This document shows positions 18,888-30,796 of a DNA stretch of 64,000 bases, piece by piece; position 1 is the stretch's first letter, and each line of letters begins with the position of its first letter. Both the position numbers and the translations under genes were made by a program. The DNA is from Streptosporangiales bacterium. Lineage in GTDB: Bacteria > Actinomycetota > Actinomycetes > Streptosporangiales > WHST01. Location of the stretch: assembly GCA_009379955.1 (NCBI GenBank), contig WHST01000001.1:89700-153699 (forward strand), in the 5' to 3' direction. Below the pieces are notes generated by a model. The model was not told the origin of the DNA. It worked only from the letters and a program-made list of their open reading frames with translations, and did not search any database.

Positions 18888-19910
18888 ATGAGAGCTGGAC
18901 CGCGGGTCGTCGCGCTGGGCGGCGGGCACGGTCTGTATGCGTCGTTGTCCGCGTTGCGTCGTGTGACGAGAAACCTCACCGCGGTCGTCACCGTCGCCGA
19001 CGACGGCGGATCGAGCGGCCGGCTGCGCAAGGAGTTCGGCGGGCTGCCGCCCGGTGACCTGCGCATGGCGCTCGCTGCGCTGTGCCGCAGCGACCAGTGG
19101 GGACAGACGTGGAGCCGCGTGGTCCAGCACCGGTTCGCGAGCGACGGCCCGCTCGACGGGCACGCGCTGGGCAACCTGCTGATCGTGAGCCTGTCGCAGC
19201 AGATGGGTGAGCCGATCGCCGCGCTCGACTGGGTGGGCCGCCTGCTCGGCGCGCAGGGCCGCGTGCTGCCGATGTGCTCCCGGCCGCTCGGCATCCGCGC
19301 GCGGGTGCGCGAGCGCGACGACCACGGACGCACCAGGGTCCGCGTCGTCGACGGGCAGGTCGCCGTGGCGACCGCCACGGGGCAGGTGCTCTCCGTGCAG
19401 ATCGTGCCGGACGACCCGCCGGCGTGCCCCGAGTCGCTGGCGGCGGTCGGCTGCGCCGACTGGGTGGTGCTCGGGCCCGGCTCCTGGTTCACCAGCGTCC
19501 TGCCGCACCTGATGGTGCCGGAGCTCGCCGACGCCCTGGTGTCGACCCCGGCGCGCAAGGTGGTCGCGCTCAACCTCGTCCCGCAACAGGGGGAGACCGA
19601 GGGCTTCTCGCCGGAGAAGCACCTCGCGGTCCTCGCCGAGCACGCACCCGAGCTGCGGATCGACGCCGTCGTCGCCGACGAACGGGTGACCGACGACGAG
19701 AACGGCCTGGCCGAGGCGGCGAAGGAGCTGGGCGCGGAGCTCGTGCTCGCCAAGGTCGGCATGGCCGACGGCACGCCCCGCCACGACCCGCGGCGGCTGG
19801 CGGGCGTCTACCGCGCCCTGTTCGCGAAGCACGACAGTGCCAACGACAGGGCCATCGAGAACGACAGTGTTGGGGCCGATTCGTCGGCCGAGTCGAGAGG
19901 ACGTAGCTGA
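18888..19910 (+). CDS. yvcK: Gluconeogenesis factor YvcK/CofD-like (UDP-sugar-binding) protein
   Basis: 340 residues. The ATG at 18888 has GAGAGGG nine bases upstream and is preferred over a GTG six codons earlier. The N-terminal glycine-rich loop [17 protein letters not shown], the [14 protein letters not shown] motif (about residues 39-52) and HALGNLLI are hallmarks of the CofD/YvcK superfamily. YvcK proteins bind UDP-sugars and are needed for normal cell shape on gluconeogenic carbon sources; in mycobacteria the homolog CuvA is linked to peptidoglycan. The stop codon overlaps the whiA start by one base (TGATG), so translation is coupled. Confidence 0.93.
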
Positions 19911-20887
19911 TGGCGATGACGCCTGCGGTCAAGGACGAGCTCGCACGAGTCTCGGTCACCAAGCCGTGCTGCCGCAAGGCGGAGGTCGCGAGCATGCTCA
20001 GGTTCGCCGGCGGGCTGCACCTGGTCGGCGGCCGGATCGTCGTCGAGGCCGAGCTCGACACCGGCGTCGCCGCACGTCGCCTCCGCAAGGACATCTCGGA
20101 GGTGTACGGCCACACCTCCGAGCTGGCCGTGATCGCGGCCGGCGGGCTGCGCAAGGGGAGCCGCTACATCGTCCGCGTCGACCGCGACGGCGAGCAGCTG
20201 GCCCGGCAGACCGGGCTCGTCGACGGCCGTGGCCGCCCGGTGCGCGGACTGCCGCCGCAGATCGTCTCGGGATCGACCTGCGACTCGGAGGGCGCCTGGC
20301 GCGGTGCGTTCCTCGCCCACGGCTCGCTGACCGAGCCCGGCCGGTCGACCGTGCTCGAGATCACCTGCCCGGGCTCGGAGGCGGCACTCGCGCTCGTCGG
20401 CGCGGCGAGGCGTCTCGGGATCGGCGCCAAGGCACGAGAGGTCCGCGGGGTCGACCGGGTGGTCGTCAAGGACGGCGACGCGATCAGCATGCTGCTCACC
20501 AGGCTCGGTGCCCACGACAGCGTCCTCGCCTGGGAGGAGCGCAGGCTGCGGCGCGAGGTGCGGGCCACGGCCAACCGGCTCGCAAACTTCGACGACGCCA
20601 ACCTGCGCCGGTCGGCCCGTGCGGCGGTCGCGGCGAGTGCGCGGGTGCAGCGCGCCCTGGAGATCCTCGGACCCGACGTGCCGAAGCACCTGAAGGAGGC
20701 CGGCGACCTCCGCGTCGGGCACCAACAGGCGAGCCTGGAGGAGCTCGGTCAGCTGGCCGTGCCGCCGCTCACCAAGGACGCCATCGCCGGCCGGATCAGG
20801 CGGCTGCTCGCGATGGCCGACAAGCGCGCGTCCGACATGGGCATCCCCTCGACCGAGGCCTCGCTGCCCGCCGACGTGATGGGCTGA
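19910..20887 (+). CDS. whiA: Sporulation/cell-division regulator WhiA
   Basis: 325 residues. N-terminal LAGLIDADG-homing-endonuclease-like domain split in two (about 1-105 with [21 protein letters not shown], and 115-215 with [18 protein letters not shown]), then a C-terminal HTH (about 225-310; [13 protein letters not shown]-like [21 protein letters not shown] and [24 protein letters not shown]). WhiA acts with WhiB-family proteins on cell-division and sporulation genes in Streptomyces and is present widely in non-sporulating Gram-positives. It overlaps yvcK and is convergent with the first peptidase gene, leaving only 13 bases between the two stops. Confidence 0.96.
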
Positions 20888-20900
20888 GCGTCCGCACCCC

Positions 20901-22082
20901 TCACCCGACGGAGCTGGCCGGGGCCTTCCAGGTGTTGCAGCCCTTGACGTCGCCAGGCCAGCCATTCGTGGTCCATCGGCGGTTGCTGCTCGAGGAGCCG
21001 TAGAGCCGCTTCTTCGGGTCACCCTTGGTCTTCGGGTTGATCTCGTCGCCGTTCTGGTGGGCGAGGATGCGCTTCTGGTCGAGCTGCATGGTGGTCGCGT
21101 TGGTGCCGAGGAACGCGGCGCCGAGGCACTGCGCCTGCAGCTCCATCCGGCGGTTGAGCAACGTGTACGCGGGCACGTCCTCGGGGTAGCTCTCGTTGTA
21201 CCGCGTGTTGAACGTCGGCCACAGACCGATCAGCGACTGGACGTGGTGCCCGAACTCGTGGGCCGGGATCTGCTTCACGTAGTCCGCGTCCTTGATCTGC
21301 GCCGTGACGCCGAGGGAGAAGTACAGCGTCCGGTTCGTCGGACAGTACAGCGACGGGAGTGTGCCGGCGCCGGCCTTCTCGGCCGCCTCGCTGCACGGGT
21401 TGGAGCCGATGACGCCCTTGCTCACCTCCACCGCCGGCTGCTGGAACGCCATGCCGCCCTTGACCAGCTGGGCCTGCCAGGTCATGACGAGGCAGGGGAG
21501 CACGGCCTTCAGGTAGGCGGCGTACCGCCGCGGGTCGGTGGAGGTGAGCGTGGCCTTGCAGTCGACGCCCGTCAGCGGGCCCGTGCGGTAGAGCAGGTTG
21601 TCCTCGGGCGAACCGCCGCTCTCCAGACCGGACACCGAGCCCGACGGCACTCCTGACCCGGTCAGGAAGTTGCCCGGGGTCGAGGGCAGCGTGGCGCCGG
21701 AGGGCAGGCCGGACGGCAGGTTGCTGGGCAGGGACCCGGACGGCAGGCCGCTGGGCAACGACCCGGACGGCAGCGAGGTCGGCCCGCCGGACGCGATCGG
21801 CTCGGACTCGGAGCCCTTGCTGAGCAGACCGGCGAACACCGCGACGCCGGCGACGAGCAGGACGCAGAGTCCGCCGCCGACGAGGATGGTCGGCAGGCCG
21901 CCCTGCCGTCGTCCCGGACGGCGCGCGCCGGGCGAGGGAGTGCTGAACATCCCGTAGCCGGGCGGCGTGGGACCCCCGGGCGGCGGTACCGGCGGTGGCA
22001 GCGGCGCGTCCATCGTGGGACCGGGCGTCGGCGACGGACGATCGTCCGACGGGAGACGCGGGGGTCCGGGTGTCCCGCTCAT
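20901..22082 (-). CDS. Neutral zinc metallopeptidase, paralog 1 (membrane-anchored, PF04228-type)
   Basis: 393 residues. Pro-rich cytoplasmic head (1-60), one membrane span (about 64-87), then a linker (about 92-150) built of repeated LPSG/SLPSG units, then the YpfJ-like peptidase domain outside the cell. The zinc motif is H275-E-F-G-H279, and the likely third ligand is E314 in ELQAQC. Six cysteines (residues 175, 197, 230, 247, 319 and one in GCNTW near the end) are conserved in all five tandem copies and probably form disulfides. Substrate is unknown. It is the most diverged copy and the last in transcription order. The chosen MSG start mirrors the other copies, although its ribosome-binding site is weak. 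Confidence 0.88.
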   Translation of the reverse strand: MSGTPGPPRLPSDDRPSPTPGPTMDAPLPPPVPPPGGPTPPGYGMFSTPSPGARRPGRRQGGLPTILVGGGLCVLLVAGVAVFAGLLSKGSESEPIASGGPTSLPSGSLPSGLPSGSLPSNLPSGLPSGATLPSTPGNFLTGSGVPSGSVSGLESGGSPEDNLLYRTGPLTGVDCKATLTSTDPRRYAAYLKAVLPCLVMTWQAQLVKGGMAFQQPAVEVSKGVIGSNPCSEAAEKAGAGTLPSLYCPTNRTLYFSLGVTAQIKDADYVKQIPAHEFGHHVQSLIGLWPTFNTRYNESYPEDVPAYTLLNRRMELQAQCLGAAFLGTNATTMQLDQKRILAHQNGDEINPKTKGDPKKRLYGSSSSNRRWTTNGWPGDVKGCNTWKAPASSVG

Positions 22083-22113
22083 CGGCGGTCGCAGCGGTGG
22101 ATCGGCGGCACCG

Positions 22114-23493
22114 TCATGCCACCCGCTTGGCGGAGGCGGACCAGGTGTTGCACCACCCGGCGTTCCGCTGGTTCCAGCCGCGGGTCATCGACCACAGGAA
22201 GTTGTTCCTGCCGTTGCCGTGGGTGCGGTACTCCGGGTGGTTCTTCACCCCGGGAATCGCCTCGTCGCCGTGCCTGTTCTGGGCGGCGATCTGTGACCTA
22301 CTCAGGTTCATCGTGTTGGCGTTGGCGGAGAGGAACGCGCCGTAGAAGCACTGCGCCTGGAGCTCCATGCGCCGCGAGAGCCTCGTGCGGGCCGCGTCGC
22401 TCGAGGCCTTGAAATGGCGCTGGTTGCGCACCTCGCTGATCCCGGTGACCGACTGCACATGGTGGGCGTACTCGTGGGCCGGGGTGCCGAGGGCGAAGTC
22501 CACGCGCTGCGTGGCGGTCTCGGGCAGGTTGTAGTAGATCGTCTCATTGGTCGAGCAGTAGAACGCGGCCGGCACGTAGCCGATGTCGGAACTGGAGCAC
22601 GGCGAGTTACCGCCCTTCTTGCTCCGCGACATCACTGTGCTGGGGGCGCGGTGCTCAATTCCCTGCCGGGCGAGCTGTATCTTGTACGCCTTGTTCAGGC
22701 AGCTGGTGATCCGGCGGACGTACTTGCTGTACGGCCCGGGCGAGGTGGACCGCAGGCGTGCCGTGCAGCGGACGCTCTTCATGGTGCCGGTCTTGTAGAG
22801 CTTGTTGTTCTCCGGGGTGCCGTAGCTGCTGCCCTCTTCCCCCGTCGAGCTCGAGGTGCTGGTCGGGACCGAGGAGAAGCTGAAGGTCGCGCCGGTCGGG
22901 GCCGACGAGGCCGATGTGGTCGAGGTCGAGGTCGAGGAGGAGGACGACGACGTCGGGACGAACCCGGTCGACGTGGCCTGGCTCGTCGGCTCCTCGTCGC
23001 CGGTGGTGGCGACGACGACGGCGATGACGATGATGAGGAGCGCGCAGAAGCCGCCGCCGCCGAGCAGGATCGGCAGCAGCGGTGACTTGCGCCTCGGGGG
23101 CGGCGGTCCGAAGCCGCCGGGTCCGGTCGGTCCGCCGGGCATCCGTGGTGGTCCGGGCGGCGGACCGTACGGTCCGCCGGGTCCGCCGGGTCCTCCGGGT
23201 GGCGGTCCGTAGGGTCCGCCGGGCGGTGGTCCATAGGGCCCGCCAGGCCCGCCGGGTCCGCGTGACCCGGGCGGGGGCATGGGCGGTGGCGCGGGTGGCT
23301 GCACGGGGCGCATCGGGCGTGCCGGCGGCGGCGGTGGTCGTCGGCCCGGGGGCGGTGGTGCCATGCCGGGCACGCCGCCACCGCCCGGGCCGGGAGGTGG
23401 CGGGACCGGTGCGGGTCGGGGAGGACCGGGCTGGGGGAGCGGTGGACCGAGAGGCCCCTGGTGGTGTCCACCGGGCTGCCAGGCGCCGGACAT
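22114..23493 (-). CDS. Neutral zinc metallopeptidase, paralog 2
   Basis: 459 residues. The ATG at 23493 (MSGAWQPGG) has GGAGAGCAGGGA before it and matches the MSG-W-PGG start of paralogs 4 and 5; an ATG 15 codons upstream is less likely. The head of about 160 residues is mostly Pro/Gly repeats (GPPP, PGGP). Next come a Lys/Arg patch (RRKSP), one membrane span, and a Ser/Thr-only linker (TSSSSSSTSTSTTSASS). The peptidase domain has an HEYAHH zinc motif (encoded near 22457-22474) and ELQAQC. All six array cysteines are present. The Pro/Gly head resembles those that recruit or scaffold partners, but this is inference. Confidence 0.88.
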   Translation of the reverse strand: MSGAWQPGGHHQGPLGPPLPQPGPPRPAPVPPPPGPGGGGVPGMAPPPPGRRPPPPPARPMRPVQPPAPPPMPPPGSRGPGGPGGPYGPPPGGPYGPPPGGPGGPGGPYGPPPGPPRMPGGPTGPGGFGPPPPRRKSPLLPILLGGGGFCALLIIVIAVVVATTGDEEPTSQATSTGFVPTSSSSSSTSTSTTSASSAPTGATFSFSSVPTSTSSSTGEEGSSYGTPENNKLYKTGTMKSVRCTARLRSTSPGPYSKYVRRITSCLNKAYKIQLARQGIEHRAPSTVMSRSKKGGNSPCSSSDIGYVPAAFYCSTNETIYYNLPETATQRVDFALGTPAHEYAHHVQSVTGISEVRNQRHFKASSDAARTRLSRRMELQAQCFYGAFLSANANTMNLSRSQIAAQNRHGDEAIPGVKNHPEYRTHGNGRNNFLWSMTRGWNQRNAGWCNTWSASAKRVA

Positions 23494-23610
23494 CGATCCC
23501 TGCTCTCCGTATCGGCACGGGTACGTCGTCGCAGACATTAGCGGATGATCAGGCGAGGAGGTGCCGCTGGACCGCCGTCCGGCAGACCCGGGACGGAATC
23601 TCCCTCCGCC

Positions 23611-24684
23611 TCATGCCACCTGCCGGGCCGGCGAGCGCCAGGTGTTGCACGCGACGACGTCGCGGCGGTCCCAGCCGCGGGCGAGGAACCAGCGCGCGTT
23701 GCTGCGGAAGGTGCCGTGGGTGCGCAGCGACGGGTCGTCGTCGATGCCGTCGACCGCCTCGTCGCCGGTGTGCTCGACGCTGTCCGCCATCGCGGCCCGT
23801 GAGACCCGCATGGTGGGGGCGTTCGCACCGACGAACGTGCCGGCGAGGCACTGGGCCTGCAGCTCCAGCCGCCTGGTGAGGAGCGTGTAGCTCGCCACGT
23901 CGGACGGATAGACGGTGCTGTAGCGGCTGGTGTAGACCTCGCTGATTCCCACGACCTGCTGGATATGGTGCGCGTACTCGTGGGCGGTCGCGGAGACGAG
24001 GTACTCGCGGTTCTTCGGCATGGCGAGCTTCGCCGCTCCCGGCAGGGAGTAGTAGATGGTGCGGTTCGCCGGGCAGTAGAAGGCGATCGGCGTGTACCCG
24101 CTGGCCGCGCTCCGGCACGGCGACGACGGGTTGCCCTCGCGCGCGACCACGAGTCCCGGCTCGGCGTACGCGATCCGTTGCCTGGCCAGCTGCGCCCGCC
24201 AGGCCCGGTTCAGGCAGCCGGTCGACTCCCGGACGAAGGCCTCGTACGGTCCGGGACGCGACGACCTGAGGTCGGCGCCGCAGTCGACGCCGGCCATGCG
24301 ACCGGTGCGGTAGAGCGCGTTGCCCTCCGGCTCGCCGTAGCGGTGCGACTCGCCGGTTGGTGACGACGACGCGCTCGCGGTCGACTGTCCCCGGTGGCTC
24401 GGCCTGGCGGTGGGGTGGTCGCTGCCGACGAGTGCGCCGAGGACGGCGGCGACGATGACGAGGAGCAGGAAGGCACCGCCGCCGGCGAGGAGCAGCAGGG
24501 GAGCGGGTGGATGCGCGTGGTGCCGTTCGGGGAGCGGATGCGTGGGCCACGGCTCGTGAGCGGCCGAACGGCTGACCGCGACCGGCGCCGGTGTCCGCTC
24601 GGCACCGGACTCCGCGCGAGGGGGGACGGCAGGCGGAGGCAACGGCGGGCGCGGGCGACTTGGTGTGCGGTCGCTAGCGGTCAT
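23611..24684 (-). CDS. Neutral zinc metallopeptidase, paralog 3 (short head)
   Basis: 357 residues, the shortest of the five. The start (MTASDRT) has a strong GGAGGTGGGAGGG ribosome-binding site. The head is Pro-rich but lacks the long PGG repeats of copies 2, 4 and 5. One membrane span (LLLLAGGGAFLLLVIVAAVLGALV, about residues 60-85, given here in two parts as a 24-residue hydrophobic run) is followed by a short Ser/Thr linker. The domain carries HEYAHH and ELQAQC and all six conserved cysteines. There is a 117-base gap to paralog 2 downstream and 25 bases from paralog 4 upstream. Confidence 0.87.
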   Translation of the reverse strand: MTASDRTPSRPRPPLPPPAVPPRAESGAERTPAPVAVSRSAAHEPWPTHPLPERHHAHPPAPLLLLAGGGAFLLLVIVAAVLGALVGSDHPTARPSHRGQSTASASSSPTGESHRYGEPEGNALYRTGRMAGVDCGADLRSSRPGPYEAFVRESTGCLNRAWRAQLARQRIAYAEPGLVVAREGNPSSPCRSAASGYTPIAFYCPANRTIYYSLPGAAKLAMPKNREYLVSATAHEYAHHIQQVVGISEVYTSRYSTVYPSDVASYTLLTRRLELQAQCLAGTFVGANAPTMRVSRAAMADSVEHTGDEAVDGIDDDPSLRTHGTFRSNARWFLARGWDRRDVVACNTWRSPARQVA

Positions 24685-24709
24685 CGCCCTCCCACCTCCG
24701 TCGTCGGTC

Positions 24710-26077
24710 TCAGCCCACCTCGTCCTCGGCGGCCGTCCAGGTGTTGCACGCACCGGCGTCCTTCTTGTCCCAGCCCTCGTTCATCAACCAGCGCGTGTTG
24801 TTCACCGGCTTGCCGTGGGTGCGGTTCGCCGGGTCGCTGTCGTCCGGGTCGTCGCCGGTCCGTTTCGCCATCGCCTCGAGCTTCCCCCGGTCGACGTTCA
24901 TCGAGCCGGAGTTGGGTGACAGGAAGATACCGGCGAGGCACTGCGCCTGCAGCTCGCTGCGCCGGGTCAGCAGCGTGGTCGCCGCGGTGTCGCCCTGCTT
25001 CTCGTAGTACCGGTTGTTGTAGGTCTCGTTGATCCCGGTGAGTGTCTGCACGTGGTGGGCGTACTCGTGGGCGGGGGTGCGCAGCACGTGATAGGCGGGG
25101 CTCTCGGTCGCCGCCGGCATGTTGTAGTAGATCGTCTGGTTCGTCGGGCAGTAGAAGGCCGCCGGGACGTAGCTGGCGCCAGAGCTCTGGCACGGCGACG
25201 ACGGGTTGTTCGACTCGGAGTAGACCGCGCTCGGCTTCTGGAACGTGATGCCCTGCTTGGTCAGCTGCGCCTCCCACGCCTGGTCGAGGCACGCCTGGAT
25301 CTTCTCGCCGTACTCCTTGTAGTCCGCGCTCGTGAACGGGTCGGACAGCTGTGCGGAGCAGTTCACACCGTCCATCACGCCGGTCTCGTAGACCTTGTTG
25401 TCCTCCGGCGTGCCGTACTGGCCGCCCACCTCGCTGCCCGAGGTCGTCTCGGTGCTCGTCGCGGTGCCCGTCTCGGTGCTGTAACTGCTGGGTTGGTACG
25501 ACGAGGCCGAGGCCGTCGAGAAGGTATAGGACGACTGCGACGTCGGCTCGTCGTTGCCTCCGCCGATGGCGGCGACGATCGCGATGATGATGATGAGGAA
25601 GGCGAAACCGCCGCCGCCGAGGCCGAGGATGAGCGGCAGGGGCGACTTCTTCCGCGGGGGGCCGCCGTACGGGCCCATCGGGCCGTATGGGCCCGTGGGA
25701 CCCATCGGCCGCCCGGGACCACCTGGTCCCATCGGACCGCCTGGCGGTGGGCCACCGGGACCCATGGGCCCGCCGAAGCCGGGCGGGCCGGGTCGCGGAC
25801 CGACGCCACCGGGCGGTGGTGCGGGCGGTGGTGCCGGCGAGGGCGGCGGACCGAGGGGGCGTTGGTGCGGCGGCGGATAGCCGGGCCCCGGCTGCCTGGG
25901 CGGTGGTGGCGGGTACCCGGGCCCCGGCCGCCTGGGCGGTGGCGGCGGGTACCCGGGCCCCGGGCCCTGCCGCGGCGGTGGCACGGGTGCCGGTTGAGGG
26001 CGCCCCACCGGAGGCAGGTGCGGCGGTCGCTGACCCGGTCCCGGCGGTGGTCCGCCCGGCCCCCAAGGTCCACTCAT
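24710..26077 (-). CDS. Neutral zinc metallopeptidase, paralog 4
   Basis: 455 residues. The ATG at 26077 (MSGPWGPGG) has AGAGGAGAA upstream. The head contains near-identical repeats of the type RRPGPGYPPPPP and then PGG/MGP repeats, ending in a Lys/Arg patch (PPRKKSP). One membrane span (IIIIAIVAAIGG at its core) follows. The linker is rich in Ser, Thr, Tyr and Glu (SSYSTETGTATSTETTSGSE). The peptidase domain has HEYAHH, ELQAQC and the six cysteines. It is closest to paralog 5 in head and membrane span, suggesting a late duplication. Confidence 0.88.
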   Translation of the reverse strand: MSGPWGPGGPPPGPGQRPPHLPPVGRPQPAPVPPPRQGPGPGYPPPPPRRPGPGYPPPPPRQPGPGYPPPHQRPLGPPPSPAPPPAPPPGGVGPRPGPPGFGGPMGPGGPPPGGPMGPGGPGRPMGPTGPYGPMGPYGGPPRKKSPLPLILGLGGGGFAFLIIIIAIVAAIGGGNDEPTSQSSYTFSTASASSYQPSSYSTETGTATSTETTSGSEVGGQYGTPEDNKVYETGVMDGVNCSAQLSDPFTSADYKEYGEKIQACLDQAWEAQLTKQGITFQKPSAVYSESNNPSSPCQSSGASYVPAAFYCPTNQTIYYNMPAATESPAYHVLRTPAHEYAHHVQTLTGINETYNNRYYEKQGDTAATTLLTRRSELQAQCLAGIFLSPNSGSMNVDRGKLEAMAKRTGDDPDDSDPANRTHGKPVNNTRWLMNEGWDKKDAGACNTWTAAEDEVG

Positions 26078-26132
26078 CGACTGTTCTCCTCTGTACAGAT
26101 GGTGCGTGGACGGGCGGTCGGCGATGCCTCGG

Positions 26133-27638
26133 TCAGGCGACTCTCGAGGAGTTCGCCGTCCAGGTGTTGCAGGATCCGGCCTTCGACGTGTTCCACCCAC
26201 GGTTGAACCAGTAGCCGTTGTTGCGGAACTGTCCGTGCGTGCGGTACTTCGGGTTCTGCTTCCAGCCCTCGACCGCGTTGTCACCGGTGTGCGCGGCGCT
26301 GTACTTCTGTTTGCTCGCGGACAGGTTCATCGTCGAGGCGTTGCGTCCCATGAACATCCCGGCCAGGCACTGCGGCTGCAGCTCCATCCTCCGGTTGATC
26401 CGCGTGTACTTGCCGACGTTCGGGTAGGCGGCGTTGTAGCGCTCGCTGTAGACGTCCCACATACCCATCAGGGTCTGGACGTGGTGCCCGTACTCATGGG
26501 CAGCGGTCTCCATCATCCAGTCGCGGTACTCGCCGATGGGGTACTTGCGCACCTGGCTCGTGGAGAAGTACATGGTCTCGTTGGTGGAGCAGTAGAACGC
26601 CATCGGAACGTACCCGGCGTTGCCGCCGCTGCACGGTGAGGTGGGGTTCGACGACACGACGACGCCCGGCTTGCGGTGCTCCATGTTCTGCGAGGCGAGC
26701 ACCGGAGCCCAGGCCTTATCCAGGCATTTCGTGACGGACGTCGCGTACCTCCGGTACGCGCTCGCCGAGTTGGACCTGAGGTTCGCGCGGCACCGGACGC
26801 CCTTCATCGTCTTGGTCTTGTAGATCTTGTTCCGCTCCGGCGAGCCGTAGCCGGTCTCTCCCGGGTCGGTGGTGGAGCTCGACGGCGAGCTGTACGTGGG
26901 GGAGTACGAGGAGTACGAGAAGCTGTAGGTGGACGACGGCGAGTACGACGAGTACGAGTACGTGGGGGAGTACGAGGAATAGCTGTAGCTGTAGGTCGAT
27001 CCCGAGGTGGGCTCGTCGTTGCCGCCGGCGACCGCGGCGACGATCGCGATGATGATGATGAGGAAGATGAACGCGCCGCCACCGCCGAGGAGGATCGGCA
27101 GCAGCGGTGACGACTTCTTCCGCGGCGGCCCGCCGTACGGACCCATCGGCCCCATGGGACCCATCGGCCCACCGGGTCCCCGGGGCGGCCCACCGGGTCC
27201 GCCGGGACCGCCTGGCCCCATCGGCGGTCCGCCGGGCCCGCGGGGTGGCCCGCCCGGGCCCATCGCGCCGGGCGGAGGAGGGGGCGTCGGCCGCGGGCCC
27301 ATGGCTCCCGGCGGCGCGGCGGGCGGTGGTGCGGGTGACCGCGGTGGTCCGAGCGGGCGCGGTGGCGGAGGCGGGGGTCCTGGGCGCCCACCCCGTGGCG
27401 GCGGTGGCGGCGGGTACGCGGGCCCGCCGCCGTGGCGAGGTGGCGGCGGCGGTGCGGCACCGCGGGGAGGCGGTACGGGTGCCGGGCGCGGTGGTCCGGG
27501 CGGCGGCATGCGCGGTGGGCCGGGTGGAGGAGGCGGCTGGCCAGGACCCGGTGGGCGTCCGGGGCCCGGCGGTCGTCCAGGGCCTGGAGGTTGTCCGCCC
27601 GGTCGCGGCCCGCCCGGTCCCCACCCGCTGCCACTCAT
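26133..27638 (-). CDS. Neutral zinc metallopeptidase, paralog 5 (Tyr/Ser-repeat linker)
   Basis: 501 residues, the longest copy and the first in transcription order. MSGSGWGPGG start with a GGGAGGGACAGG ribosome-binding site. The head is about 225 residues of PGG, PPRGG and GPMGPMGP repeats, then PPRKKSSP and one membrane span (IFLIIIIAIVAAVAGG). The linker is an unusual run of Ser-Tyr-Ser/Pro repeats (SYSYSSYSPTYSYSSYSPSS and similar). The peptidase domain has HEYGHH, then ELQPQC and the six cysteines. Homologs of this family are single secreted or membrane proteins with no firmly known substrate. The 252-base gap to the divergent DUF2207 gene should hold the array's main promoter. Confidence 0.88.
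   Translation of the reverse strand: MSGSGWGPGGPRPGGQPPGPGRPPGPGRPPGPGQPPPPPGPPRMPPPGPPRPAPVPPPRGAAPPPPPRHGGGPAYPPPPPPRGGRPGPPPPPPRPLGPPRSPAPPPAAPPGAMGPRPTPPPPPGAMGPGGPPRGPGGPPMGPGGPGGPGGPPRGPGGPMGPMGPMGPYGGPPRKKSSPLLPILLGGGGAFIFLIIIIAIVAAVAGGNDEPTSGSTYSYSYSSYSPTYSYSSYSPSSTYSFSYSSYSPTYSSPSSSTTDPGETGYGSPERNKIYKTKTMKGVRCRANLRSNSASAYRRYATSVTKCLDKAWAPVLASQNMEHRKPGVVVSSNPTSPCSGGNAGYVPMAFYCSTNETMYFSTSQVRKYPIGEYRDWMMETAAHEYGHHVQTLMGMWDVYSERYNAAYPNVGKYTRINRRMELQPQCLAGMFMGRNASTMNLSASKQKYSAAHTGDNAVEGWKQNPKYRTHGQFRNNGYWFNRGWNTSKAGSCNTWTANSSRVA
26875..27003 (-). repeat. Degenerate Tyr/Ser codon repeat encoding the linker of peptidase paralog 5
   Basis: The segment TACGTGGGGGAGTACGAGGA (plus strand) occurs near 26893 and again near 26959, embedded in related Tyr/Ser-coding units. 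It encodes the extracytoplasmic linker between membrane span and peptidase domain and is absent from the other four copies. Replication slippage is the likely origin. Confidence 0.65.
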
Positions 27639-27890
27639 CGACCTGTCCCTCCCGGCTGTCACGTGCGGTCGCATTGGCGACGGCGCGACCACGGTGCAGG
27701 CTAGGTGAGACGGGCCTCCCGGACGCAAGCTGGGACGCCACCAGGCGCACCGTGTGTGCCCGCACGGCCGCAGCCTAGTAGGTTCTCCCTCGCATAGGGT
27801 CGCGACCCGTACTCTCGTTGGAGAGGATCGGGGCGCGGGATGACCCGTGGTTGGACTACCGCTACGCTGCCACCCGTGTTTGGGGATGTG
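27639..27890. promoter_or_regulatory. Divergent intergenic region between the peptidase array and the DUF2207 gene
   Basis: 252 bases without a credible gene. It should hold promoters in both directions. A weak candidate for the DUF2207 side is GATGAC (27840-27845) and TACGCT (27864-27869) 18 bases apart. No clear -35/-10 pair was found for the array side, and no riboswitch or tRNA was recognised. Confidence 0.4.
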
Positions 27891-29648
27891 ATGAGAACCC
27901 GTCGTACCCTCTTCAACCGTCCGGGCGCACACTCGTTCGTGAGTGTGGTCCGGCGCGGTGCCGTCGCGGCTGGCGCCCTCGCGGTCGCCGCCCTCACGGT
28001 GCTTCCCGCGGCGACCGCCAACGCGGCGACCGCGAACGTCGTCCGCCAGGACCTCTCCATGCAGGTCGGTGCCGACGGTTCGACGAAGGTCACCGAGACG
28101 ATCGACTACGACTACGCGTCCGGCAACGCCGGCCTCACGCGGACGTTCCTCACGCGTGCGCGGTACAGCGACACCGAGGACCGCATCTACCGGATCGGGT
28201 CGATCGAGGCCGAGTCCGGCGGTGCCGAGGTGCCGACGAAGGTCAGCGAGCAGGACGGCTCGACGACCGTCGACCTGGATCCCGGCAAGCAGCTCGACGG
28301 CCGCAAGAAGTACACCCTGACCTACGTCGTCGAAGGCCTGCTCGCACCGGCGACCGACGGTATGACCCTGAGCTGGACACCCGTCAGCGGATGGAAGGTC
28401 CCGGTCAAGCAGGTCAACATCAACGTCATCGCGGCGAAGCAGCCGACCCACGTCTCCTGCACCGCGGGTGCGGTGGGCAGCTCGATGCCGTGCACGCTCT
28501 CGCAGGCGGGTGGCGAAGGTGTCACCGGCAGCAAGTTCCTGCAGAACAACCTGCAGGCAGGCGGAGCGATGTCGACCAACGTCGGCTTCCCGACCGGCAC
28601 CGCCGACGGCGGCCCGATCCTGGAGAAGCGGCACACCCTCGCGACGGCGTTCTCCGTGACACCGTTCACGGTCGCCGCGCTCGTCGCCGTCGTGCTGATC
28701 GGCGTCGTCGGTCTCTGGCTGCTCTGGCGGCTGCGTGGTCGCGACTCGCGCTCGGTGGCGGCAGGCTCCGACACCGGTGGCCGCCGTCCGTTCCACGAGC
28801 AGGACGAAGCCGTCGTCTTCAGCCCGCCCGGAGGCCTGCGTCCTGGTCAGGTCGGCACGCTCGTCGACGAGCAGGCCGACGTGGTCGACGTCGTCGCCAC
28901 GATCCTCGACCTGGCGGTGCGCAACTACATCTACGTCGAGGAGCTCGGCGGGGCACGTCCCGACTGGCGGCTGCACAAGCGCAACGAGCCCGGCGACGAG
29001 CTGCTGCCGTACGAGCGCGCGGTGTTCGACGAGCTGTTCGACGACGGCGACACGGTGCTCGTCTCCGACCTGCGCACGGTGCTGGCGAACGACCTGCCGC
29101 GCCTGCGCGACCTCATGTACAGCGACGTGGTCACCCAGGGCTGGTTCGCCGCCCGGCCCGACCGGGTGCGTTCGCGCTGGCTCTGGGGCGGCGTCATCGT
29201 CGCGGTCGTCGGCGTGATCGTCACCGTCCTGCTGGCGCTGTTCACCTTCGACGCGCTCGTCGGCCTCGCGGTGGTGGTCGTGGGTGTCGGGATTGCCGTC
29301 GCCGCGGAGTACATGCCGTCCCGCACGGCACGCGGCAGTGAGGTGCTCGGCCAGATCAACGGCCTGCGCCAGTACCTGCGCGGTGCCGACCCGGCCGACA
29401 TCCCCGCGGAGCAGCAGGAGATCCTGTGCGCCCGGCTCGTGCCGTACGCGGCGCTGTTCGGCGCGGAGGACCGCTGGTCCCACGCGCTGGCCGAGTCCGC
29501 CGACGTGGGCGAGGAGGGCTTCAGCTGGTACGGCGGGCCCGAGGGCTGGCGCCGGGAGGACCTCGACGACTCGGTGTCGAACTTCCTCGTCGACGTGACG
29601 GGTGCGATCTCCACCTCGCGCCCGCTCCGCGGCGTGGTCGGAAGCTGA
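27891..29648 (+). CDS. DUF2207 domain-containing predicted membrane protein
   Basis: 585 residues. The ATG at 27891 (MRTRRTLF) has GGGGATGTG just upstream; an ATG 17 codons earlier would add a non-signal leader. A Sec signal peptide with cleavage near ATANAA (about residue 45) is followed by a beta-rich DUF2207 extracytoplasmic domain (about 50-255, with YDYASGNAGLTRTFLTRARY). One membrane span (about 262-283) follows. A cytoplasmic winged-helix-like part comes next (VVDVVATILDLAVRNYIYVEE, then LLPYERAVFDELF), with a hydrophobic hairpin (about 440-485) inside it. The C-terminal region has WSHALAESADVGEEGFSWYGG. The function of this family is unknown. Its divergent position next to five surface peptidases may mean a shared envelope role. 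Confidence 0.82.
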   Translation: MRTRRTLFNRPGAHSFVSVVRRGAVAAGALAVAALTVLPAATANAATANVVRQDLSMQVGADGSTKVTETIDYDYASGNAGLTRTFLTRARYSDTEDRIYRIGSIEAESGGAEVPTKVSEQDGSTTVDLDPGKQLDGRKKYTLTYVVEGLLAPATDGMTLSWTPVSGWKVPVKQVNINVIAAKQPTHVSCTAGAVGSSMPCTLSQAGGEGVTGSKFLQNNLQAGGAMSTNVGFPTGTADGGPILEKRHTLATAFSVTPFTVAALVAVVLIGVVGLWLLWRLRGRDSRSVAAGSDTGGRRPFHEQDEAVVFSPPGGLRPGQVGTLVDEQADVVDVVATILDLAVRNYIYVEELGGARPDWRLHKRNEPGDELLPYERAVFDELFDDGDTVLVSDLRTVLANDLPRLRDLMYSDVVTQGWFAARPDRVRSRWLWGGVIVAVVGVIVTVLLALFTFDALVGLAVVVVGVGIAVAAEYMPSRTARGSEVLGQINGLRQYLRGADPADIPAEQQEILCARLVPYAALFGAEDRWSHALAESADVGEEGFSWYGGPEGWRREDLDDSVSNFLVDVTGAISTSRPLRGVVGS

Positions 29649-29659
29649 CCTTCAGGTAA

Positions 29660-30796
<1,137 letters not shown>

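Follow-up and report, generated by a model that had tools for sequence, protein, structure and literature searches.

M1 zinc aminopeptidases carry an N-terminal saddle domain beside their HExxH gluzincin domain. Within the PF04228 family, KPN_02809, which shares the NF050010 assignment with Escherichia coli YpfJ, is an active HExxH zinc protease that is inhibited by EDTA, phenanthroline and DTT (PMC3269727). A weaker relative, the surface-exposed elastase FP0506 of Flavobacterium psychrophilum, is a gluzincin-type HExxH...ExxA protein with PF04228 as its best Pfam profile, and its description supports the Glu of ExxA as the third zinc ligand (PMC6414381). The literature that we found establishes no natural substrate for the PF04228 peptidases, in agreement with an earlier note on this DNA. 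DUF2207 proteins occur in many bacteria and their molecular function is not known; in Streptococcus mutans, a deletion mutant of the DUF2207 gene SMU.243 tolerates acid and oxidative stress less well and forms less biofilm (PMC10457818), a phenotype that would be compatible with a surface role and does not identify it.

In the window analysed here (64,000 nucleotides, G000:C1:89700-153699; draft genome of 6.6 Mb), five tandem genes for predicted membrane-anchored PF04228 peptidases, Z1-Z5, lie next to a DUF2207 gene. We consider it reasonably probable that these genes form the catalytic half of a conserved two-gene actinobacterial module composed of DUF2207 and one or more type-II anchored, gluzincin-type peptidases, a partnership suggested by gene neighbourhood, co-occurrence and a predicted fold match. 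Both families are already known; what appears to be new is their pairing as a module, and no paper describing such a link was found in the open-access literature searched. The pairing would give DUF2207 a concrete partner and the PF04228 peptidases a testable one.

The Z proteins have the HExxH domain and the E-x-Q-A-x-C motif in common with KPN_02809 and YpfJ, as well as five of six cysteines at shared positions; they differ in one cysteine that has moved by 8 columns, in their Pro-rich head and Ser/Thr-rich linker, in leaving the N-terminal ~80 positions of the family model unmatched, in a Gln in place of Asp and in the linkage to DUF2207. Whereas FP0506 is a lipoprotein for which the accessible text describes no DUF2207 partner (PMC6414381), the Z proteins are predicted type-II membrane proteins whose array adjoins a DUF2207 gene. 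SMU.243 is a membrane protein of the same Pfam family as the window's DUF2207, but it adjoins uppP and a peptidase link is not mentioned in the accessible part of that study (PMC10457818), while the window's gene adjoins peptidases. The likeness of DUF2207 to M1 zinc aminopeptidases, LTA4 hydrolase and oligosaccharyltransferase (OST) chains is structural, comes from a predicted model and corresponds to about 10% identity; unlike in the M1 enzymes, the saddle-like and HExxH domains would here lie on separate membrane proteins, and DUF2207 itself has no HExxH motif.

A five-gene peptidase array between whiA and gap

The array is flanked by two plus-strand housekeeping genes that lie outside the module, whiA (19910..20887, three WhiA Pfam domains) and gap (29708..30796, Gp_dh_N and Gp_dh_C), so that the gene order reads whiA, five minus-strand peptidases, DUF2207 on the plus strand, and then gap, pgk and tpi. 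The first gene of the array, Z5 (26133..27638, minus strand, 501 aa, PF04228 E 1e-17), adjoins the DUF2207 gene and is followed on the same strand by Z4 (24710..26077, 455 aa, E 8.3e-15, with HEYAHH and ELQAQC), Z3 (23611..24684, 357 aa, E 6.6e-17, with the shortest head) and Z2 (22114..23493, 459 aa, E 7.5e-14), all predicted membrane-anchored zinc peptidases. For Z2, the ATG at 23493 was chosen over the first ATG of the open reading frame at 23538 on the basis of an alignment with the 'MSG' start of Z4 and Z5. The last gene, Z1 (20901..22082, minus strand, 393 aa, E 3.6e-11), a predicted type-II membrane zinc peptidase with HEFGHH, ELQAQC and the six shared cysteines, is the most divergent of the five copies and converges with whiA across a gap of 13 bp.

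A tandem array of five such genes is far beyond chance. With likely starts, the genes are spaced by 25-117 bp, gaps that make a single Z5 to Z1 transcription unit plausible; their GC3 (0.86-0.93) is like that of the neighbouring genes, and a search for internal stops in Z1-Z5 found none. The 201-bp divergent region between Z5 and DUF2207 (27639..27839) is, from its position, the presumed site of both promoters. A scan of this region for a sigma-70 consensus and a terminator-like site found neither and is uninformative, and GACAC, which we take to be the motif bound by WhiA, occurs in none of the array's intergenic regions, this one included. A plasmid search with whiA returned zero matches.

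Architecture and family assignment of the peptidases

All five proteins score above the PF04228 gathering cut-off (43.5-65 bits vs 23.2; E from 3.6e-11 to 1e-17) and are the only matches to this family in the 6.6 Mb genome (n=5). The matches cover only the C-terminal ~205 residues of the 290-position model, beginning at positions 78-87, and are thus not full length. Each protein has one hydrophobic span with Arg, Lys or His at its N side, preceded by a head of 58-175 aa that is rich in Pro (26-47%) and followed by a linker and a protease domain of ~238 aa that contains HExxH and six cysteines common to all copies. One extra cysteine, within the membrane span, is present in each of Z1 and Z2. 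HE[FY][GA]HH and ELQ[AP]QC occur in all five, with Z5 carrying Pro instead of Ala, and in every copy the Glu of this second motif, downstream of HExxH, is the presumed third ligand, leaving the catalytic motifs intact throughout. The Asp of the canonical ELQADC motif is Gln in all five, and the scores against NF050010, the NCBIfam YpfJ/KPN_02809 equivalog, are only 58.8-82.5 bits against a cut-off of 250, which argues for a subfamily distinct from YpfJ/KPN_02809 and related to it at the superfamily level only.

The earlier note, made from the letters of the window, had described five tandem membrane HExxH metallopeptidases at 20901-27638 with six invariant cysteines and a surface-facing protease architecture, and all of this stands: the five PF04228 open reading frames are intact, the motif and cysteines are common to them all, and the predicted topology supports an outward-facing domain. 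Its 'YpfJ-like' label is borne out for the superfamily and fails for the equivalog (59-83 bits vs 250, Asp replaced by Gln). The heads, called Pro/Gly-rich, are Pro-rich in all five copies and Gly-rich in Z2, Z4 and Z5 (26-27%) only, with 15% Gly in Z1 and 2% in Z3, and the graded linker lengths were not recovered, the linkers of Z1 to Z5 measuring 63, 53, 26, 41 and 52 aa without a gradient along the array.

No M1 Pfam match was found in the peptidases, and by sequence they gave only weak collagenase and nanobody matches among solved structures (E at least 0.11). An AlphaFold2 (AF2) model of the Z5 domain (pLDDT 87.8) likewise had no significant PDB match, the best (E of about 0.9) being jannalysin and selecase, which are minigluzincins, so that neither the structure search nor Pfam revealed an M1-type catalytic domain. 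Z2, Z4, Z5 and DUF2207 were also scanned with the PADLOC anti-phage defence models, with no match at E 0.01.

The DUF2207 protein

The DUF2207 gene (27840..29648, plus strand) encodes a membrane protein of 602 aa that scores above the cut-offs of both PF09972 (57.6 bits vs 24.4; E 2.5e-15) and PF20990 (118.2 bits vs 33; E 6.5e-34). Its predicted layout comprises a signal or anchor at 31-52, an ectodomain at 66-263, a span at ~275-300, a cytosolic part and a transmembrane hairpin at ~440-494. By sequence it had no match among solved structures. A Foldseek search of the PDB with the AF2 model (pLDDT 87.3) returned OST complex chains and many M1 zinc aminopeptidases at E 1e-5 to 6e-8; there were 139 structural matches at E <= 0.001, often of 210-230 columns, the size of the ectodomain. 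Because TM-scores over the whole query are low (0.18-0.23) and no alignment coordinates are reported, the aligned length was used to place the M1 match on the ectodomain, which we infer to resemble the N-terminal saddle of the M1 enzymes.

Position and copy number in the window's genus

A sister-species genome of the same genus (G001) has the same order as the window, whiA, two peptidases, DUF2207 and gap. Between the two species whiA is 93% identical and DUF2207 75%, whereas the peptidases, at 50-59%, diverge faster than DUF2207. In a 198-row tree Z1-Z5 group with both sister-species copies in a single clade with support 100 (100/99 in a further tree). The copy at L067:7950-8648 is the orthologue of Z3 (61-62%) and that at L067:9095-9784 the orthologue of Z5, pairings supported at 99/99 and 96/92. 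Z1, Z2 and Z4 branch outside these pairs, which may mean that the array predates the species split and that part of it was lost in the sister species; because the inner branches are weak, a verdict on gain or loss of these three copies was dropped.

No peptidase- or DUF2207-like gene lies between whiA and gap in the 14 other genomes where both genes were seen, the spacing being mostly about 120-700 bp and 1.7-5.8 kb in four. G002, a third member of the genus whose genome is 77% complete, showed neither whiA nor the peptidases and is hence uninformative. The single clade and the absence of these genes from the interval in the 14 genomes support a lineage-specific expansion at whiA-gap, a site that is specific to the window's genus. 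The earlier note had proposed this expansion and had suggested counting paralogues and building a tree of the protease domains; both were done, giving five copies against two within one fully supported clade. It had also named transcriptional silence of most copies, or their inactivation in sister strains, as a sign against its reading. The sister species gives a mixed answer: it has two intact copies at the same site and lacks three. Its treatment of DUF2207 as a bystander did not survive the wider comparison below.

Linkage of the peptidase subfamily with DUF2207

Loci of this subfamily in other genomes of the order lack whiA and gap, yet there too DUF2207 is placed head-to-head with the peptidase. 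A strong match to DUF2207 is present in 28 of 31 chosen genomes, and a peptidase adjoins it in 25 of the 28. Because these genomes had mostly been chosen for having the peptidase, the test was rerun from the DUF2207 side by examining the surroundings of DUF2207 genes in 80 genomes, one per genus or family. Where enough upstream sequence was available, head-to-head linkage was found in 25 of the 38 genera of the order with this DUF2207 type and was missing in about a third (13 genera); two more linked cases lie outside the order, and distant DUF2207 paralogues in the same sample were not linked to a peptidase. Eleven of the 13 unlinked genera have an amide-type peptidase (ELQAQ or ELQAN in place of ELQAD) elsewhere in the genome, and among eight genomes of the order without a DUF2207 match, seven also lack this peptidase and one has it (co-occurrence, Fisher p 5e-6, uncorrected for phylogeny). 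DUF2207 is widespread without these peptidases, so it is not an obligate partner.

The pairing spans Streptosporangiales, Pseudonocardiaceae, Nocardia, Kribbella and Actinopolyspora, and in 74 linked loci all 81 DUF2207 genes are opposite in strand to the peptidase. Another scan, for which the peptidase was the sole criterion, supplied linked pairs from Nocardia, Kribbella, Amycolatopsis, Actinosynnema and Actinopolyspora, in surroundings that differ from those in Streptosporangiales, where DTD, asparaginase or PhoU usually lies on one side and DUF2516, HTH, M56 and BlaI on the other. Neither the other groups nor the whiA-gap site show those neighbours. Linked loci thus recur in several unrelated genomic surroundings: the pair stays together, only the peptidase multiplies (2-5 copies per DUF2207 in expanded lineages), and DUF2207 is the one constant neighbour of the subfamily across many genera and locations.

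M56/BlaI, DTD, DUF2516 and two-component genes were considered as obligate parts of the module and rejected, since these genes are tied to a single Streptosporangiales neighbourhood and do not accompany the module at its other sites. In many Streptosporangiales loci (L068-L101, L103-L138) the pair is often near genes for an M56-type membrane peptidase and a BlaI-type repressor, a possible regulatory neighbour. In G326 and G333, DUF2207 occupies the usual Streptosporangiales place and the peptidase lies elsewhere. Another DUF2207 gene of the window's genome, ~35% identical, has no peptidase (L197, G000:C60, 7193-8995); an acyl-CoA thioesterase-like gene of one type neighbours both this copy and a DUF2207 gene on contig C363 of G002 (L088).

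A residue signature of the linked copies

The Asp of ELQADC is present in 74 of 74 canonical PF04228 proteins, whereas 119 of 120 DUF2207-linked copies with a readable motif have Q, N, S or T there; among unlinked subfamily members, 45 of 58 carry D or E. The ExxxD gluzincins suggest, by analogy, that this position would orient the first zinc histidine. On a tree built with the motif residue masked, linkage requires 11 changes and the residue 5; there are four supported independent residue/linkage pairs, of which one or two are informative, all in the same direction. With so few informative pairs we do not claim independent coevolution of residue and linkage, and the amide marks a clade without proving coevolution. 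It nevertheless provides a simple annotation rule that would split the subfamily from YpfJ-type enzymes. Two acid-type exceptions (ELQADC/EVQADC) lie head-to-head with DUF2207, at L137:7046-7717 and in L235.

Proposed mechanism and alternatives

In the module that we favour, the two components would be encoded head-to-head from a shared intergenic region. The peptidase domains, facing outward and held at the membrane by one helix, would cleave cell-surface or secreted proteins, and DUF2207 would partner them in trans, probably positioning or recruiting the substrate via its M1-saddle-shaped ectodomain. One DUF2207 protein could serve one to five catalytic proteins; we propose that differing substrates drive the copies to multiply and diverge fast, with the partner kept constant. 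In the window's genus the module has been relocated to whiA-gap. In its boldest form, conceivable but unlikely, this would be a split membrane-anchored protease in which the saddle-like DUF2207 ectodomain, as the part that positions the substrate, and the HExxH domain are separate proteins, one DUF2207 having several interchangeable, fast-evolving catalytic partners with an amide in place of the canonical second-shell acid.

Genetic linkage and the predicted outward placement of both proteins on the same membrane would also suit a different relation, in which DUF2207 is the target and the peptidases trim or shed its ectodomain as a membrane signalling switch, with different copies answering different cues. 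The sizeable cytosolic parts of DUF2207 could transmit such a signal, but this reading does not by itself explain why several fast-diverging peptidases accompany one conserved DUF2207, and we regard it as unlikely. Divergent neighbours can, moreover, share a promoter and nothing else. The peptidases might then be a general set for surface and secreted proteins, acting in wall turnover, competition or nutrient release, with the DUF2207 link reflecting a shared promoter or historical synteny; their architecture is that of surface proteases, and tandem arrays of related D/E-type copies occur unlinked in Nonomuraea, among others. This explanation seems to us improbable, as the linkage survives relocation to whiA-gap and several different surroundings, and the co-occurrence holds even where the genes are unlinked.

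Loss of the canonical Asp could also mean weak or no catalysis. If so, the amide-type copies (ELQAD to ELQAQ/N) would be pseudoproteases that bind surface ligands so as to sequester or present them, as the near-complete disappearance of the acid from linked copies might suggest. HExxH and its catalytic Glu are nonetheless retained, as are the putative third ligand and all six cysteines, and the changes in residue and linkage are clade-level, with one or two informative independent pairs, so that we rate this possibility as very improbable and retain the module of DUF2207 and active peptidases as the preferred reading. Lineages with one, two or four to five peptidases per DUF2207 offer natural comparisons for it.

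Two further kinds of locus were recorded alongside. Tandem arrays of acidic-type (ELQA[DE]C) HExxH genes unlinked to DUF2207 are present in Nonomuraea at L144, L146, L154, L168 and L172. At each of the Kribbella loci L176 and L178, a pair of DUF2207 genes is accompanied by four to five linked peptidases that have Ser or Thr at the motif position.
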